From Calothrix anomala FACHB-343 (lineage in GTDB: Bacteria > Cyanobacteriota > Cyanobacteriia > Cyanobacteriales > Nostocaceae): a DNA stretch of 64,000 bases. Under the pieces are notes generated by a model. It saw only the letters and a program-made list of their open reading frames with translations, was not told where the DNA came from and searched no databases. Location: the NCBI RefSeq assembly GCF_014696435.1, contig NZ_JACJQG010000023.1, positions 1-64,000 on the forward strand, given 5' to 3'. Shown in pieces: positions 46,434-54,871 of this stretch (the stretch's first letter is position 1; each line of letters starts with the position of its first letter). The translations under genes and the position numbers were made by a program.

Positions 46434-46790
46434 ATGGACAACCCGACGCTGCTCAAGTCTACAACTAGGCATATTCGCATTTTTGCGGCAGAACTTGACC
46501 AGGATGGCGAACTACTTCCCAGTAATCAGGTCTTAACTTTAGATGTTGACCCAGATAATGAATTTAACTGGAATGAAGATGCCCTACAAAAGATTTATCG
46601 CAAGTTTGATGAACTAGTAGAAGCATCTAGTGGCGCTGATTTAACGGACTACAACTTACGTCGCGTTGGTTCCGACCTAGAGCATTATTTGCGATCGCTC
46701 TTGCAAAAAGGCGAAATCAGCTACAATCTGCAAAGTCGCGTCACTAACTACAGCATGGGACTTCCCCAAGTAGCAGTTGACGATAAGTAA
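46434..46790 (+). CDS. ndhM: NAD(P)H-quinone oxidoreductase subunit M
   Basis: 118 residues that match cyanobacterial NdhM along the full length: STTRHIRIFAAELDQDGELLP, TLDVDPDNEFNWNEDALQKIY, GADLTDYNLRRVGSDLEHYLRSLL and the C-terminal VTNYSMGLPQ. NdhM is one of the oxygenic-photosynthesis-specific subunits of the NDH-1 complex; it sits on the cytoplasmic arm, where ferredoxin delivers electrons for cyclic electron flow and respiration. Stands alone. Confidence 0.95.
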   Translation: MDNPTLLKSTTRHIRIFAAELDQDGELLPSNQVLTLDVDPDNEFNWNEDALQKIYRKFDELVEASSGADLTDYNLRRVGSDLEHYLRSLLQKGEISYNLQSRVTNYSMGLPQVAVDDK

Positions 46791-47725: not shown

Positions 47726-50014
47726 ATGGAAAATGATGCTCCCACGCTCTACTGCCCAAATGAACTTTGTCAATCTCCCAATCCCCTGACCCATAAGTTT
47801 TGCTTGCGGTGTTCTACAGCTATACCTAAGCGCTATCTTTGGGTGCAGGGTGAAGGCTTGAGTTTTGCCACCCCAGGAGAGATATTAGGCGATCGCTATT
47901 TAGTTATAGATCGCTCTGTGGTCTTAGATATCAGACCGGGGTTAGTTCCTGAGACACCAGAATTAGAGAGTTTGTCTGTAATTAGACCTTATTTGCGGCT
48001 CATACCTTATCGCGTACAAGTGCCCCAGGTGTATGGAGTTATACCGCCCATTGAGGGACGCTCTCAACAAGAAATATTACTTTTAGAAAAACCGCCAATA
48101 TTTACCGATAGTACAGGGCGACAAGTCCAACTCTACCCGAATTTAATCGCCGCTTGGGGTAATGCTAGTTCTATACGCCAACTGCACTGGCTGTGGCAAT
48201 TAGCTAATCTGTGGCAACCACTGTTAAGTGAAGGTGTGGCGACAACTATACTTAAACCAGATTTAATTAGAGTAGAAGGTACTTTAGTCCGCTTGTTAGA
48301 TTTGCATTCTGACGCTGGTATCCAGCCGAGTTTATCGGAATTAGGGAAATTTTGGCAGCAGTTAGAGCAGACAGCAAAACCAGCCATAGCGGAATTTATT
48401 CACAAAATTAGTAGTTCTTTAATAGCAGAAGAAATAAATTCAGCCGAACAATTAATTGCAGCATTAGATCGAGGACTAGGTCAATTAGGGCGATCGCAAA
48501 CCTCTAATATTAAAATTTTTACCAAAACCGATACAGGCCCCAGTCGCCAACGCAATGAAGATGCTTGTTATCCTCTCAGTGGGACTTTAGTTACCAAACC
48601 GCCTCAATCTACAGCCTTAGCCATTGTCTGTGATGGAATTGGCGGTCATGAAGGTGGTAATGTGGCTTCAAATTTAGCCATTGAAACAATTCAACAGCAG
48701 GTACAGCGACTCACACAAGTTCCGGCCGATCATATCGATCCTTCAATGCTGCTAACTGACTTAGAATCGGCGGTAGCAGTCGTCAATGATAAAATTAGCC
48801 AGCGCAACGACAGCGAAAATCGCCAAGGTCGTCAACGCATGGGTACAACTATCGTCATGGCATTACCCATTGGTCATGAAATTTATATTACCCATGTGGG
48901 TGATAGTCGTGCCTATTGGATTACCCGCCAAGGTTGCTATCAAGTTACCCTAGATGATGATGTTGCCTCCCGCGAAGTTAGGTTAGGCTATGCTCTCTAT
49001 CGAGAAGCCATACAACAAAGTGGTTCTGGTTCCTTAGTCCAAGCCTTAGGGATGAGTCCTAGTACATCACTTCATCCCACCGCCCAGAGGTTTATTCTCG
49101 ATGAAGATGCTGTATTTTTACTCACATCCGATGGCTTAAGTGATTTTGACCGGATCGAAGATTATTGGGAAACAGAAATCTTACCCATTCTCAAAGCCGA
49201 AGCAGATATTGCTAGCGTGGCAGAGAAATTAGTCGAAATCGCCAATACTAAAAATGGTCACGATAATGTCACCATTGCTTTAGTACATTATCAGGCGAAA
49301 TATACAGAACCAGATTTAAGTATAACAGCCATCATCCCGGAAAGCTCATTTGTTGGTAATTCTACTGAACCATATCCGACAACAGCACAGCCGAATTTAG
49401 TCAGCAATCCCAACAATAAAACCAAAGTTATTCCTGATGAATACAAGCGGCGTAACGGCTTTGCTCAACTACCGCTACAGTTGATTGTACCTTTAATGTT
49501 GGTGACGATAGTTGGTAGTTTGGGATACTTAGTCATGCAATTACGCCAGGGGAAACAGCAAATTGCTACTACTAGCCCCAGCCCTAATTCACAGCCAAAT
49601 CCCAATCCATCGCCAACAGAGCGAACCATTGATAATCTGGCGGCAGGTTGGGTAATTCAAACTAACAAAGAAATACAAAGAGAAACGACCAAAGAAAAGT
49701 TACCTCAAGGTTTTTTTCAAGTAATTGATAAAAAACCTATTTCTGTAGATGGTCAACCAGGTGACTTTTTGGTGGATTTCCGAGTCTGTCCAAATAATGA
49801 AGAAACCCAAAATACAGTCCCAGAAAATCCTTCGGCTTCATCAGTACCCCCTAAAAAAGTCAAGATTAGACTATCTCAACTTAAACTTTCAGCAGCCGCC
49901 TCTGATTTGACTGTCTTAAAAGCAGATGACCCAAATCCATGTGTCTCCAACAAGCCAGAGCCAACAAATCAGCCACCTGTAACTAAACCACAAGCCGACG
50001 GTGATGCAACTTAG
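47726..50014 (+). CDS. Zinc-ribbon PP2C-type serine/threonine phosphatase with membrane anchor
   Basis: 762 residues from the ATG at 47726 (the TTG at 47705 is also in frame). Domains in order: a zinc ribbon (CPNELC ... CLRC, residues 9-33); about 220 residues related to the degenerate kinase-like part of cyanobacterial PP2C proteins (GDRYLVIDR, LLEKPPIF); a PP2C phosphatase (about 265-520) with intact metal-site motifs DTGPSRQRNEDA, CDGIGGHEGG, THVGDSRAYW, LLTSDGLSD and GHDNVTIAL; one membrane helix near residue 585; and a Pro/Asn-rich outer part. It would remove phosphate from Ser/Thr of target proteins. A CHAT-FHA gene follows 129 bases downstream. Confidence 0.88.
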   Translation: MENDAPTLYCPNELCQSPNPLTHKFCLRCSTAIPKRYLWVQGEGLSFATPGEILGDRYLVIDRSVVLDIRPGLVPETPELESLSVIRPYLRLIPYRVQVPQVYGVIPPIEGRSQQEILLLEKPPIFTDSTGRQVQLYPNLIAAWGNASSIRQLHWLWQLANLWQPLLSEGVATTILKPDLIRVEGTLVRLLDLHSDAGIQPSLSELGKFWQQLEQTAKPAIAEFIHKISSSLIAEEINSAEQLIAALDRGLGQLGRSQTSNIKIFTKTDTGPSRQRNEDACYPLSGTLVTKPPQSTALAIVCDGIGGHEGGNVASNLAIETIQQQVQRLTQVPADHIDPSMLLTDLESAVAVVNDKISQRNDSENRQGRQRMGTTIVMALPIGHEIYITHVGDSRAYWITRQGCYQVTLDDDVASREVRLGYALYREAIQQSGSGSLVQALGMSPSTSLHPTAQRFILDEDAVFLLTSDGLSDFDRIEDYWETEILPILKAEADIASVAEKLVEIANTKNGHDNVTIALVHYQAKYTEPDLSITAIIPESSFVGNSTEPYPTTAQPNLVSNPNNKTKVIPDEYKRRNGFAQLPLQLIVPLMLVTIVGSLGYLVMQLRQGKQQIATTSPSPNSQPNPNPSPTERTIDNLAAGWVIQTNKEIQRETTKEKLPQGFFQVIDKKPISVDGQPGDFLVDFRVCPNNEETQNTVPENPSASSVPPKKVKIRLSQLKLSAAASDLTVLKADDPNPCVSNKPEPTNQPPVTKPQADGDAT

Positions 50015-50143
50015 TGGAATTGCGCCATAAACTGATAAAACCTGAAATAATACAGGTAGTAACCAAAATCAAAAACTGCCAAGGTAAAGACTTTTACCTG
50101 GAAAAACTGTTATTGAAAATAATTGTTTTCACATTTAAGTTTA

Positions 50144-51739
50144 ATGACTTCATTGCCATGCCTGAACCTGGCGATCGCTCGTTTGACCAACACTGGCACA
50201 GATAATTTCGCCATTTGGGTAGTTAAAGCGCCTTATCCTAGTGGCTATGTTTTGCATGACTGTATATGGCCAGTTGAACTCTCTCAAGTTTGGCAAGAAT
50301 GGCAGGAAATGTTCGGAGGTGATAACCCTTTAAATATTGCTTCTGGTGCATCCCTCCCACAGAAAGCCCCATTACCAATAAATTTGACTTCATCCCCTTC
50401 AGGGCAAACAGCAGGTTATAGCAGTCGTCTGATGCAATACTTGGGAATGAGTCTGTGGCGCTGGTTATTTGACGGGCCAATTCTCGGTAGTTTAGAACGC
50501 AGTCGGGGTATAGCTATGGGACAGCATACTCGGTTGCGCTTTCGCTTAGAAATTCGCGATCCGGATTTAATTGCCTTACCTTGGGAAATTATGCAGCGTG
50601 AAGCCGGTCAATCGGTAATGTCGCTGTCACAAGATTTACTCTTTAGCCGAACTACGAGTGAAGTTGAATCATTACCGCCTTTACGTATAGAACAGACGCT
50701 GAAAATTCTGTTGGTATTAGGCGAAAATGAAAATAAAAATCTGCAACTAGAAAAAGAAGCAGAAATTTTAAAACAAACTCTGACTAAAGCAGGGCCTTTA
50801 GGTAGTTATTCTCAGGGATATGCACCATGTATGGTAACTACATTGCTGCAACCCCAACCACAGGAATTAATTCAAGAATTAGAAACTAAAGCATACAATG
50901 TCTTTTTCTATGCCGGTCATGGTTTACCCGATCCAGACGGGGGTTTACTATTTTTACGACCGGGGATGACTCTTAATGGCATAGAATTAGCTCAGGTATT
51001 GACTCGCAATGGTGTGAAATTAGCAGTGTTTAATGCTTGTTGGTTAGCAAGACCGGCAGCGGTTAATCAACAAGCCATACCTTCTAGCAGTTTGGCAGAA
51101 GTGTTAATTCGTCATGGTGTACCGGCAGTTTTGGGAATGCGAGATGAGATTGCGGATGCGGAAAGCCACAGTTTTATTCAAGCTTTTACCGAAGCATTGC
51201 GATCGCGTAAATCCATCGATGAAGCTGTCGCCCAAGCTAGACAACATTTGTTAACAGTATATAGGTTTAATCAACCAGCCTGGACTTTACCAGTTCTCTA
51301 TCTCCATCCTGATTTTGATGGCGAACTCATTAAAAGTTTTGATGAAGGAATTACCGAACTACCAGATACGACAATTCCGAGTATAATTGCTTCGGTACCT
51401 ACAGCTTCGTTGCGATCGCTGGCAGTACCAGATAAAACTTGCTTGTTGCGTTCTGGTGTCACCCGCATTGGTCGGACTAAAGACAACGATCTTGTCATTC
51501 CCGAACCTTCTGTGTCTAAACGCCATGCGGAAATTTTATGTCGGAATACTTTTAGCGGGACAAATCCAGTTAGAACTTATTATTTACAAGATTTATCTAC
51601 CTACGGTACAACCTGGGTTTCTAGTTCTAATGGCTGGCAACAAATCCTCCGCGAGGAAGTACCTTTAACCTCAGGAATGCAGTTAAAGTTTGGGAGTTCC
51701 AGAGGTGAAACTTGGGAGTTTATTATTGAAGACTCCTAA
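50144..51739 (+). CDS. CHAT (caspase-like) protease fused to an FHA domain
   Basis: 531 residues from the ATG at 50144; the frame is open back to a TTG at 50123. The N-terminal 130 residues (LNLAIARLTNTGTDNFAIWVVKAPYPSGYV) are a cyanobacterial CHAT-associated region. The CHAT domain (about 140-400) has the catalytic pair His259 in FFYAGHGLPD and Cys299 in AVFNACWLA, and ends with SFIQAFTEALRSRKSIDEAV and WTLPVLYLHPDF. An FHA domain (about 430-525) carries TRIGRTKDND, SVSKRHAEIL and DLSTYGTTWV, the usual phosphothreonine-binding residues. So a protease domain is coupled to a phosphopeptide reader, next to a PP2C phosphatase gene. The substrate is unknown. Confidence 0.88.
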   Translation: MTSLPCLNLAIARLTNTGTDNFAIWVVKAPYPSGYVLHDCIWPVELSQVWQEWQEMFGGDNPLNIASGASLPQKAPLPINLTSSPSGQTAGYSSRLMQYLGMSLWRWLFDGPILGSLERSRGIAMGQHTRLRFRLEIRDPDLIALPWEIMQREAGQSVMSLSQDLLFSRTTSEVESLPPLRIEQTLKILLVLGENENKNLQLEKEAEILKQTLTKAGPLGSYSQGYAPCMVTTLLQPQPQELIQELETKAYNVFFYAGHGLPDPDGGLLFLRPGMTLNGIELAQVLTRNGVKLAVFNACWLARPAAVNQQAIPSSSLAEVLIRHGVPAVLGMRDEIADAESHSFIQAFTEALRSRKSIDEAVAQARQHLLTVYRFNQPAWTLPVLYLHPDFDGELIKSFDEGITELPDTTIPSIIASVPTASLRSLAVPDKTCLLRSGVTRIGRTKDNDLVIPEPSVSKRHAEILCRNTFSGTNPVRTYYLQDLSTYGTTWVSSSNGWQQILREEVPLTSGMQLKFGSSRGETWEFIIEDS

Positions 51740-51973
51740 TTAGTTCATACACCTAACGTGTTTTGATTTCTTGTCAAGACAGGAGTGATTTATGTAGTTT
51801 GTGTAAATCCAAATTACTAATCGCATTTCAATGATTATCCAAAAAATAACAGCCTGAAAAAATAGTTTCATCCTCAGCAAATTTCATTTGATTTTTGCGG
51901 AAATGGAATAAGAACAGTTGTAGCTGTCAATACCGCTAAATAATCAACTCAATCATCAACTCGGAGGCGACAA

Positions 51974-52612
51974 ATGATTAACAATATTAACAACTCAGCT
52001 AATTTTACTTCTTCACCATCTCAAGTCGAATTAGATTTCCTCGCCGCTTTACTAGAAGTAGAAGATGCAACTTACCCTTGGAACCCTGCTGATAGTGAAT
52101 CAGATGCTTATTTTTGCGCTTTAGAACAGCAGTTTCTCAGTGATGAGTTATGGGACGAACAAGAGCTAAATACGCGATCGCATGGTTTTTACCAACAACT
52201 TGATACACTATGGCCAGAAGATGCGACTGATTCCCCGGAACAAGCTAATAGCAGTCAGACTTTATTCGCTAATCTCCAAGCAGCTTTTGCCGCAGCCATA
52301 CCCCAAGAATGGCTAAATAACATTGCCCAAAAAGCCACTGAGATGTTTACCTCCCAGCAATCTCTTGGCGAGCAATTAGTGGAGTGTGTTCAAGGAGTGT
52401 TACCAACTTGGGCAGCAGAAGATCTCTTAGTTTTAGCCCGTCCTTATGCCTATGCTATGCGTAGCGGAGAACCACATAACCCAGGATCTGTGATGAGTAA
52501 ATTTGAAAATAAGGAATGGGAAAGTTTATCCGATGTCGAGCGAGCAAAGGTTAGTTTAGCGATTTCTTACTATGCTCTGACCCAACTTCACAGCTTTCAG
52601 TCAGAATCCTAA
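51974..52612 (+). CDS. Unrecognised acidic protein downstream of the CHAT-FHA gene, 212 aa
   Basis: Start supported by CGGAGGCGA just upstream. Composition is acidic (many Glu/Asp in residues 15-90), then a helical part with AAFAAAIPQEWLNNIAQKATEMFTSQQ and a C-terminal LVLARPYAYAMRSGEPH and WESLSDVERAKVSLAISYYAL. No signal peptide or membrane segment. It is on the same strand as the CHAT-FHA gene, 234 bases after it, and could be its substrate, inhibitor or regulator. I do not recognise the family. Confidence 0.65.
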   Translation: MINNINNSANFTSSPSQVELDFLAALLEVEDATYPWNPADSESDAYFCALEQQFLSDELWDEQELNTRSHGFYQQLDTLWPEDATDSPEQANSSQTLFANLQAAFAAAIPQEWLNNIAQKATEMFTSQQSLGEQLVECVQGVLPTWAAEDLLVLARPYAYAMRSGEPHNPGSVMSKFENKEWESLSDVERAKVSLAISYYALTQLHSFQSES

Positions 52613-52668
52613 ATCAGTTGTCTTTTATCCTTTAGGGGTCAGTTAATTCAGGCGACTTCTTGCTTTTG

Positions 52669-52713
52669 CCCGCACTCGACGCTTGTATTGCGGGTCTTAT
52701 ACTTTTTTTCTCG
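52669..52713 (+). terminator. Rho-independent terminator-like hairpin
   Basis: Stem CCCGCA / TGCGGG with a 14-base loop, followed after nine bases by a run of seven T. It ends the PP2C/CHAT-FHA/212-aa transcript. Confidence 0.6.
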
Positions 52714-52798
52714 TTATTTTTAAAGACAATTTCCCTAGTATAATTCCAACTATAGGCTGATTGCGGAAGCAGCGCTATCTATCTCAAGGTAGAAAAGA

Positions 52799-52870
52799 GT
52801 CAATGGTCAATGGTCAATGGTCAATAGTCAATGGTCAATAGTCAATGGTCAATGGTCAATGGTCAATAGT
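52799..52870. repeat. Tandem repeat, TCAATGG/TCAATAG heptamers
   Basis: About ten copies. A CTTGTCC/CTTGTCT array of roughly five more units follows directly to 52905. Confidence 0.95.
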
Positions 52871-52918
52871 CCCCCTTGTCTCCCTTGTCCTCCTTGTCCT
52901 CCTCTTCTCCCTCCTCCC

Positions 52919-54283
52919 TCATTTAGGGCCGAGGAAGCGAGTAGCGAAATTTTGCGATCGCGTGGGTGAAAGGGCACGTGCTTTTAAAATTGCTGCCATC
53001 AAAAAGGCGTAGGATAATACCCCAACAATTACCAATAACAAGGCATTGATTGAACCAGTAGCATTCCATAAGGCATGAAGTGCAGCTGCGCTTACATACC
53101 CAATGGGGAGAATTTGCCAAACTAGACGGGGTTTGAGTACAGCTAAACCGATAAAATAGCCCAAATAGCCACTGTAAGCCATGTGTCCGGCTACAGAACC
53201 TAAAATTCGCGGAATTAGTAATTGTAAACCTACGAGTTGACCAGTGCCTACTCCCGCTTGTTGCGCCACATTTTGAGTAATAACAGGCACATACTGACCA
53301 AGAGTTTCTAATAAAGTAAAACCCACTGCCGAAGCAGTTCCTAAGAGAATGCCATCTAAAGGTTCCCAGATACCTATGCGTTCTCGCCAAGGTGAGGGCA
53401 ATATCAGGCCAATAGCTAAGGCTGCTAATACAGGTAATGCTTTCAGTAATTCTTCCATTAAACCTGCACCAAAAAACATCCGTATCAGCAATTCGGTGAA
53501 GGTTAGTGTATCCTGAGATGAAGGTAAGTTCCCAGGCAATAAACCGCGAAATACAAAAATAAACAAATCCAATAGGGGACTTTTCAATATTACTGCGGTA
53601 CCTAAAGCTACAGATGCTAGTACCCACCAAGGCTTTTGTTTACCGCAGAGTTGGTATACAAAGTAATAAGCGGCAAAGGCTATATAACTAGCAACAATCA
53701 CTTGATTGGCTTGTGGTCTGCCTACCGTAGCAAACATTAATACCACAAATACTACTGTTAAAATTCCTGGTATGAGATAAGCTTTACGAGTTAAATCTTT
53801 ACCAGTGGAAATAATCGGGAACAGTTGAGTAAAGCTCACCGAATCAGATTTTAAGGGTGCGGGATAACTCCCTGGTGATGGCAGAGGTGTGGCTGGCCTG
53901 GTCATGATTGTGGCTTGGGGTACATAATCATGCTCAAACACAAATTGCGGCCCGTCAGCACCTAAAGAAATGCGATCGCCTGGCTGTAATTCTTGACAAC
54001 CTTGGATGCGCTGTCCGTTTAAATACGTACCGTTAGCGCTATTTAAATCACAAATAAGCCAGCTAAATTTGTTATCTGGGGAAGAGAGCGGACGAACCAC
54101 AGCATGACGACGAGATACCATCCGATACATCATGGCATCCAAGACAATTTGGCAGCTGGGGTCGCGTCCAACGATCATCTCTTGACTTGGGAGCAGCGAG
54201 TAGCGGAATTCTGACCTAAGAGGTGCCCCATTACCAGACACTAGCCGCAGAAATGCATTATGTCTTGCGTTTTTGCCTGTCAT
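52919..54283 (-). CDS. FHA domain fused to a PrsW-type intramembrane protease
   Basis: 454 residues. FHA domain at about 25-115 (MIVGRDPSC, MVSRRHAVVRPL, CDLNSANGTYLNG, LQPGDRISLG). After a Pro-rich linker come about nine membrane helices. The PrsW metal-site motifs are present: MEELLKALPVL (EExxK, near residue 278), GFTLLETLGQ (FxxxE), AGHMAYSGYLGY and ALHALWN. PrsW proteases cut membrane-bound anti-sigma factors or toxins. Joining to FHA suggests the protease is steered by phosphothreonine, and the gene ends convergent to the PP2C/CHAT-FHA group. Length fits an FHA plus PrsW fusion, without other parts. Confidence 0.88.
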   Translation of the reverse strand: MTGKNARHNAFLRLVSGNGAPLRSEFRYSLLPSQEMIVGRDPSCQIVLDAMMYRMVSRRHAVVRPLSSPDNKFSWLICDLNSANGTYLNGQRIQGCQELQPGDRISLGADGPQFVFEHDYVPQATIMTRPATPLPSPGSYPAPLKSDSVSFTQLFPIISTGKDLTRKAYLIPGILTVVFVVLMFATVGRPQANQVIVASYIAFAAYYFVYQLCGKQKPWWVLASVALGTAVILKSPLLDLFIFVFRGLLPGNLPSSQDTLTFTELLIRMFFGAGLMEELLKALPVLAALAIGLILPSPWRERIGIWEPLDGILLGTASAVGFTLLETLGQYVPVITQNVAQQAGVGTGQLVGLQLLIPRILGSVAGHMAYSGYLGYFIGLAVLKPRLVWQILPIGYVSAAALHALWNATGSINALLLVIVGVLSYAFLMAAILKARALSPTRSQNFATRFLGPK

Positions 54284-54871
54284 CGAGTTAGATTGCTTGT
54301 CTCAAAGAATTCGGAAATTACTTGTTATTAGAACTTAAGCCTAACCAATTTACAGCAATCTCATTTAAATGTTGCAAAAAAAATTATCTGCCGTACCTGA
54401 ATTGTGACTTTAAATTTGTTCATCATACTGGATTACTGTAACTGCGGCATGGCTAAATACAATATAGCTTCACTCACTGCTCAACAATCCGAAATTTTCT
54501 CCGTAAAAACCAAAATTATGCGATCGCGTGCTGACAAGCTGTAGATTGTTAGCACTAAGACTATATCTTTGGTTGATTTGGAGTTGAGGCTGTAGATGCT
54601 TAACGATCAATTGTCAACAAATTATAGACTATGGATTGTGGACTGTTGACAACCCTAACATTAAATCTTGTCCCAATGGTGTAACCTCAATGCTATCTTG
54701 ATGCTAAAGTTTATGTGATAAATTACACTACTAGGTTATGAAAATTAATCTTTTCTTGTACCTAGTTTGAAAATATCGTTGACTGTTGACTGTTGACTGT
54801 TGACTGTTGACTGTTGACTGTTGACTGTTGACTGTTGACTGTTGACTGTTGATGCGTACTAGCCTCTAGTT
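54284..54871. other. Intergenic region, 588 bases
   Basis: AT-rich, no gene. It holds the promoter side of the FHA-PrsW gene, repeat fragments around 54620-54650 and the long TTGACTG array (54779-54852), ending about 20 bases beyond the narM stop. Confidence 0.6.
54779..54852. repeat. Tandem repeat, TTGACTG heptamer
   Basis: Ten perfect copies of TTGACTG, the longest pure array in the window, just beyond the narM stop codon. Confidence 0.97.

Follow-up and report, generated by a model that had tools for sequence, protein, structure and literature searches.

HetF and PatU3 have been studied as heterocyst and cell-division factors. In the part of PMC8406250 that describes its layout, HetF carries a C-terminal membrane segment and TPR, and an excerpt of a review reports that this protease cuts PatU3, the 3′ part of PatU. 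According to the passages of PMC7377430 on these genes, patU is the gene that follows hetZ and exists in Anabaena 7120 as two separate parts, patU5 and patU3, and PatU3 binds HetZ and may limit the free HetZ. The locus described here lies in a 64,000-nucleotide stretch of Calothrix anomala FACHB-343 (contig NZ_JACJQG010000023.1, positions 1 to 64,000; hereafter the window), within a contig of 115 kb and a genome of 9.24 Mb. It comprises genes for a PP2C-type Ser/Thr phosphatase, a protease in which a CHAT domain is fused to an FHA domain (CHAT-FHA), an acidic protein of 212 amino acids (aa), and a convergent FHA-PrsW intramembrane protease. On balance, and with a confidence a little above even, the sequences suggest that this locus is a second, paralogous proteolytic switch of the HetF-PatU type. 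The four genes exist and lie where a first-pass annotation, made from the sequence alone, had placed them, and its descriptions of a zinc-ribbon PP2C with a membrane anchor, of a CHAT protease with an intact His/Cys pair fused to FHA, and of a convergent FHA-PrsW protease were all borne out by the domain matches and residue counts given below.

CHAT-FHA is a soluble, caspase-like protease of 531 aa (50144-51739, plus strand), whose start is probably the ATG at 50144 rather than an upstream TTG, a choice made by eye. Pfam matched both the CHAT domain (aa 101-374, 50444-51265, plus strand; E 1.1e-20) and the FHA domain (51461-51694, plus strand; E 6.9e-14). The catalytic pair, His259 (50918-50920) and Cys299 (51038-51040), was invariant in 80/80 orthologues, and the same columns were kept in 15/15 HetF sequences; a membrane segment was predicted in none of the 80 orthologues. 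Among the matches listed, the closest named one came from Calothrix brevissima NIES-22 (99%). The NCBIfam HetF model recognized CHAT-FHA at E 6.8e-45 and 153.7 bits, far below its cut-off of 1200 bits. When a CHAT-FHA profile was run against its own genome, the protein itself ranked first and HetF second (E 7.5e-61), the seven remaining CHAT matches following at E 7.5e-15 or weaker. A tree was built from 38 CHAT domains, namely 16 of CHAT-FHA, 15 of HetF and the 7 further CHATs of the same genome; NCBIfam identified 14 of the HetF sequences, which were partial and came from other genomes, at 456-723 bits over the part covered. The CHAT-FHA clade received a support of 96/88 and the HetF clade 99/96, the seven other CHATs standing apart at 100/99. 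In this tree, the CHAT domain of CHAT-FHA is placed as the sister clade of HetF (alr3546 of Anabaena PCC 7120, involved in the divisome and in heterocyst development), with which it shares homology over ~300 residues and the same His/Cys pair. CHAT-FHA differs from HetF in the FHA domain at its C-terminus, in the lack of a predicted membrane segment, and in its 154 bits to the HetF model against the 1494 bits of the HetF of its own genome. The best reading of these sequences would be that FHA stands in place of the C-terminal membrane and TPR parts of HetF.

The second homology concerns the 212-aa protein (51974-52612, plus strand), the predicted partner and substrate of CHAT-FHA. It had been annotated at first as an unrecognized acidic protein, and the description as acidic holds (median net charge of -18.5 over 58 orthologues), as does the absence of any Pfam or NCBIfam family above cut-off; what has changed is that the protein can now be recognized, from profile comparisons, as a distant relative of PatU. 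No transmembrane segment was predicted in it. When a profile of 44 orthologues was searched against the whole genome of the strain with E values up to 10, only the protein itself and one other place were returned, the latter at E 0.098, and this place was an open reading frame (ORF) overlapping the end of the HetZ gene (HetZ being named by NCBIfam at 620 bits over a cut-off of 550). The hetZ gene stood beside PatU in 36/36 further loci tested; at locus L388, a transposase-like ORF took its place. In a sample of 242 genomes of the order, covering 30 families, PatU was found in 146, in 8 of them as weak short pieces only. The alignment of the two families by hhalign gave E 4.6e-5 with the 212-aa family as query and 1.4e-6 with PatU as query, and E 1.1e-6 with a wider PatU set. 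As controls, 18 unrelated neighbour families gave E values of at least 0.039 with the 212-aa query and at least 0.012 with the PatU query, three other alignments at least 0.038, the reversed PatU 0.044, and ten shuffles at least 0.16; the best of 60 further shuffles with the PatU query reached 5e-4.

The strongest test of this relation was the search of whole genomes with the PatU profile. Over 35 genomes and with E values up to 10, it returned 14 matches other than PatU, and 10 of them, judged by their coordinates, were the 212-aa protein, at E 2.3e-7 to 0.036. All four matches below 1e-4 belonged to it (2.3e-7, 2.9e-6, 1.2e-5 and 1.5e-5), the remaining four of the 14 falling in unrelated places (best E 0.001). 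A single PatU sequence reached the 212-aa protein once (genome G010, E 4.8e-4). In the reverse direction, the 212-aa profile gave weak second matches in 28 genomes, which corresponded to PatU in three (G044, G091 and G121) and to unrelated places in others. The alignable core extends over aa 108-206 of the 212-aa protein (52295-52591, plus strand; helical in the model) and aa 134-228 of PatU. Upstream of the core, each family carries a conserved Pro-Trp motif (YPW and FPWE), which, lying outside the alignments, is at most suggestive of kinship. The link with PatU was found by sequence profiles only; the structure model was helical and of moderate quality (predicted local distance difference test, pLDDT, 65.8; predicted TM-score, pTM, 0.54), and its fold search gave no PDB match at E<=0.001 (best 0.79), a result that shows little either way. 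Besides the core, the two families are alike in that each co-occurs with one of two sister CHAT proteases. They differ in that the 212-aa gene adjoins CHAT-FHA rather than hetZ and encodes a shorter protein that lacks the C-terminal part of PatU. With regard to PatU itself, its match carried stops in 11/23 genomes of the family to which the window belongs, and where these were inspected, a separate open frame began near PatU residue 67-73, as the patU5/patU3 split predicts.

These two homologies gain meaning from the way in which the proteins are paired across the 242 genomes. CHAT-FHA was taken as present in 168 of them (176 with a match at 1e-20, minus 8 in which the sole match was HetF-like in score), including two genomes with the gene in pieces (G121 and G158) and one with an internal stop (G106). 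The 212-aa protein was matched in 176/242 at E<=0.001. Both proteins were found together in 163 genomes, CHAT-FHA alone in 5, the 212-aa protein alone in 13, and neither in 61 (phi 0.82). For HetF and PatU, with the 8 weak PatU pieces left out, the corresponding counts were 128 with both, 6 and 10 with one alone, and 98 with neither (phi 0.87). The crossed pairs were looser, with a phi of 0.59 for HetF and the 212-aa protein, 0.66 for CHAT-FHA and PatU, 0.60 for CHAT-FHA and HetF, and 0.63 for the 212-aa protein and PatU. CHAT-FHA occurred in 24/30 families sampled, mostly in all or nearly all members, and the 212-aa protein was present in 33/36 CHAT-FHA genomes without PatU. This distribution suggests that the protease-partner arrangement predates pattern formation and has a more general role.

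Such a pairing would also be expected if the 212-aa protein were an adaptor or an inhibitor of CHAT-FHA, the true substrate lying elsewhere, since tight co-occurrence and adjacency suit any physical partner, and its small size, acidity and modelled helices would be compatible with an inhibitor. An inhibitor would be expected to be lost with its protease, yet 13/74 genomes lacking CHAT-FHA keep the 212-aa protein, in comparison with the 5/168 CHAT-FHA genomes that lack the 212-aa protein. This imbalance indicates that the protein can outlive the protease and therefore has some use without it. Genera g29 and g57 have lost CHAT-FHA but still carry PP2C, the 212-aa gene and PrsW; an inhibitor would hardly have been retained there, whereas a regulator that the protease ordinarily controls might have been. 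In addition, PatU, its relative, is given as a HetF substrate in the review excerpt mentioned above. For these reasons, a role as adaptor or inhibitor is regarded as unlikely. At loci L268, L271 and L273 of these two genera, where PP2C and the 212-aa gene have no CHAT-FHA between them, a weak remnant of the FHA tail (E 0.003-0.056) was observed in the gap, that is, in 3/5 of the g29 and g57 loci fetched. In genus g79, two genomes, G121 and G158 (loci L274, L275, L378 and L380), carry broken copies of both CHAT-FHA and the 212-aa gene, and their congener G169 has both genes.

The gene order was examined in 80 order-level CHAT-FHA loci, which were picked by hand from the matches listed, over 21 families, and do not constitute a random draw. 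In 56/80 (17 families), CHAT-FHA was followed on its own strand by the 212-aa gene at a distance of at most 800 bp; PP2C ended within 1.6 kb upstream in 38/80 (12 families), and ndhM (46434-46790, plus strand, in the window) lay upstream in 33/80 (11 families). Under a looser count of presence in the fragment, these figures were 58, 40 and 33, respectively, the 58 including two loci (L118 and L120) with the 212-aa gene upstream of CHAT-FHA. In the named Nostocales loci, taken as the best 80 of 441 matching, the 212-aa gene was present on the same strand in 80 and PP2C in 79, and among 8 loci of other orders of the class PP2C was upstream in 7 and the 212-aa gene present in 6. The first-pass annotation had left it to a neighbourhood survey to decide if the arrangement reaches beyond this strain, and it does, across families and into other orders of the class; it is more than chance. 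The possibility that it reflects merely an old conserved gene order, with no working link between the genes, draws on ndhM, which encodes a subunit of a photosynthetic complex without an evident link to the others and is nevertheless found upstream in 33/80, being probably a neighbour only. Against this stand the 20 unlinked 212-aa loci that were fetched, 19 of which came from genomes with CHAT-FHA elsewhere (some lay near contig ends), as well as the pairing itself, which is tighter than any crossed pairing that involves HetF or PatU, so that an order without function is considered very unlikely. Around the 20 unlinked loci no consistent neighbour was found; 4 of them had a response-regulator-like family and 3 a pentapeptide-like one, in varying positions.

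It was shown above that CHAT-FHA is a sister of HetF and the 212-aa protein a relative of PatU, and for this reason an action of the former on the latter is supported, indirectly. The parallel with HetF and PatU would rest on two independent homologies and on the pairing, and for the cleavage reaction, the direction of control, the phospho-gating and the part played by PP2C, we infer the following course. One of the many Ser/Thr kinases of the genome would give rise to a Thr-phosphorylated protein, which would dock to CHAT-FHA, or activate it, through the FHA domain. CHAT-FHA would then cut the PatU-like 212-aa protein, which would otherwise hold a regulator inactive, and the regulator would be released; this step is drawn from the parallel with HetF, PatU3 and HetZ, in which PatU3 is thought to restrain HetZ. 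The membrane-anchored PP2C would strip the phosphate and reset the switch, and FHA-PrsW, where present, would read such a mark as well, with a membrane substrate of its own.

The phosphatase that would reset the switch (762 aa, 47726-50014, plus strand) was assigned from Pfam and NCBIfam matches, residue counts and a structure model, and it looks intact and membrane-anchored. It consists of an N-terminal four-Cys ribbon (C10/C15/C26/C29, 47753-47812), a region at aa 36-258 (47831-48499), the catalytic domain at aa 262-525 (48509-49300), one hydrophobic segment predicted to span the membrane at aa 579-597 (49460-49516), and a variable tail, all on the plus strand. The ribbon cysteines and the metal-binding aspartates D279/D303/D469/D513 were kept in 40/40 orthologues, and a hydrophobic 19-mer past residue 540 was likewise present in 40/40. 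The fold search matched the modelled catalytic domain with Stp1, PstP and tPphA, with which it shares the catalytic fold and the metal aspartates; the protein of this locus differs from these phosphatases in the additional Cys ribbon, the familyless region of 220 residues, the membrane anchor and the tail. This region of ~220 residues was conserved across 34 further aligned orthologues. It gave no Pfam match in the protein of the window, only single-member, chance-level matches among 35 sequences, and no PDB sequence match; the structure model was weak there, and the fold-search results were filled by PP2C. A pseudokinase had been suspected by eye in the N-terminus; hhalign gave it a probability of 0.35%, and the Pfam and PDB sequence searches lent it no support. 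The identity of this phosphatase with HltA was ruled out, since HltA is a GAF-SpoIIE protein according to the passages on it in PMC9430166.

Several findings weigh against a second switch of this type, and the first concern the gating. FHA domains usually bind phosphothreonine through Arg, Ser and His residues and the Asn of an NG motif. In the FHA domain of CHAT-FHA, Arg444 and Ser458 were each kept in 80/80 orthologues and His461 in 79/80, and at the usual Asn position only 4 of them carried Asn, against 43 with Tyr, 32 with Phe and 1 with Trp; FHA-PrsW retained all four residues in its own FHA domain in 30/30. Consequently, the phosphothreonine-binding residues presupposed by the first-pass annotation stand in both domains as far as Arg, Ser and His are concerned, and the Asn is missing from CHAT-FHA in 76/80. 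The Tyr or Phe at this position is a warning that binding by this FHA may be atypical or absent, and phospho-gating of CHAT-FHA is best described as plausible. Moreover, none of the 63 kinase matches of the genome falls on the 115-kb contig, which agrees with the original remark that the window lacks a Ser/Thr kinase, and none was recognized by eye among the neighbour families recurring in at least 5/80 loci, so that the search for a linked kinase, which the same annotation had advised, yielded none. Elsewhere in this genome, on contigs C62, C65, C86 and C134, further FHA genes lie within ~2.5 kb of a kinase match, unlike the FHA genes of the window.

Other points of this kind concern the homologies and the pairing. 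The tree program warned of long branches meeting between HetF and the other CHATs. The part common to the 212-aa protein and PatU covers only ~100 residues at 20-22% identity, the 212-aa protein ending at the last aligned helix, without the C-terminal part of PatU; the PatU profile did not reach the 212-aa protein in 25/35 genomes, and BLASTP between the two proteins of the strain gave nothing (E 2.5). The counts of presence and absence ignore kinship, and the presence of HetF was set by a hand rule of at least 2 matches, plus the 8 HetF-only genomes, with an exception for six genomes of family f8 in which the second match resembled a split CHAT-FHA. The 13 genomes in which the 212-aa protein stands without CHAT-FHA belong here as well. 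Finally, a mirror-tree comparison over 34 loci gave a partial r of 0.36 for CHAT-FHA and the 212-aa protein, in comparison with 0.40 and 0.57 for the PP2C pairs; this correlation is regarded as uninformative.

Many cyanobacteria carry CHAT-FHA together with a PatU-related protein, often by a phosphatase gene, in what looks like a second, unrecognized switch that may respond to phosphorylation. In the literature searched, which mostly excluded subscription papers, no publication naming both a CHAT domain and an FHA domain was found, nor was the relation of CHAT-FHA with HetF and of the 212-aa protein with PatU found described as a matched pair. A broader proposal, which we put forward tentatively and hold at less than even confidence, is that two sister protease-substrate switches arose when protease and substrate were duplicated together early in cyanobacterial history, that HetF-PatU is not heterocyst-specific, and that CHAT-FHA and the 212-aa protein would couple Ser/Thr phosphorylation to the caspase-like cleavage of an antagonist of a transcription regulator. 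The likeness to PatU gives a protein family without a Pfam or NCBIfam model of its own a testable identity, and it points to a concrete reaction that can be assayed easily. If FHA gates the protease, Ser/Thr phosphorylation would be joined to caspase-like proteolysis in bacteria, and the numerous kinases of these genomes would gain a new kind of output.

The first-pass annotation had associated CHAT proteases with conflict and cell death, and the locus could be seen as an anti-phage or cell-death module. The described system closest to this idea is Craspase (the TPR-CHAT protein Csx29 with Csx30), which we take to lack FHA and PP2C and to have a CHAT domain distant from that of CHAT-FHA. In the passages of PMC9729208 and PMC11106740 on it, CHAT proteases do act in such roles, and Craspase resembles the present locus as a CHAT protease with a dedicated protein substrate and differs from it in being RNA-guided. 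Here, PADLOC returned no convincing match for the four proteins (best E 0.016), CHAT-FHA is spread over 24/30 families, and its closest studied kin, HetF, is a developmental and cell-division protease. A conflict role is thus unsupported and appears highly improbable.

FHA-PrsW (454 aa, 52919-54283, minus strand) carries an FHA domain (53960-54175, minus strand; E 1.1e-18) and a PrsW domain (52988-53635, minus strand), the latter matched by Pfam at E 7.7e-35 and 120.7 bits over a cut-off of 23.5. The motifs of PrsW proteases are EExxK, FxxxE, a His and HxxxN. Among 30 orthologues, EExxK and FxxxE were kept in 30/30, the lone His in 29/30, and the His and Asn of HxxxN in 30 and 29, respectively. 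Fusions of FHA to PrsW like this one were noted by Zhang et al. 2012 and proposed as signalling peptidases, and the passages of that paper on FHA-PrsW (PMC3482391) make no mention of CHAT. FHA-PrsW was found in 127/242 genomes, counting strong matches only, hand-picked from 149 at 1e-10; PP2C, by comparison, was found in 235/242 at 1e-40, paralogues included.

The first-pass annotation had proposed that CHAT-FHA and FHA-PrsW act in series, as one two-step pathway under the control of PP2C. The gene positions are consistent with some association, since PrsW converged on the 212-aa gene from no more than 1.5 kb away in 29/80 order-level loci (13 families; present in the fragment in 30), on the opposite strand in 75 of the best 80 of 441 Nostocales loci, and present in 2 of the 8 loci of other orders. 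In both its FHA and its PrsW part, the residues examined were kept in 29-30/30, and the 212-aa gene and PrsW lie together, convergent and close, away from CHAT-FHA, in six genomes (G031, G053, G070, G087, G135 and G130), as confirmed in fetched loci for G053 and G087; a strong PrsW was seen at 2 only of the 20 unlinked 212-aa loci. On the other side, 55/168 CHAT-FHA genomes have no strong PrsW match, and no membrane segment was predicted in the 212-aa protein. The case for PrsW as the second step of one pathway is accordingly weak, and the two-step model is held to be improbable. Because it has no strong match in so many CHAT-FHA genomes and the 212-aa protein is soluble, FHA-PrsW is best viewed as a module that accompanies the CHAT-FHA switch but can be separated from it. 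Its gene is flanked in the window by two arrays of 7-base tandem repeats of ~10 copies each, GTCAATG and GTTGACT, at 52799-52871 and 54778-54852.

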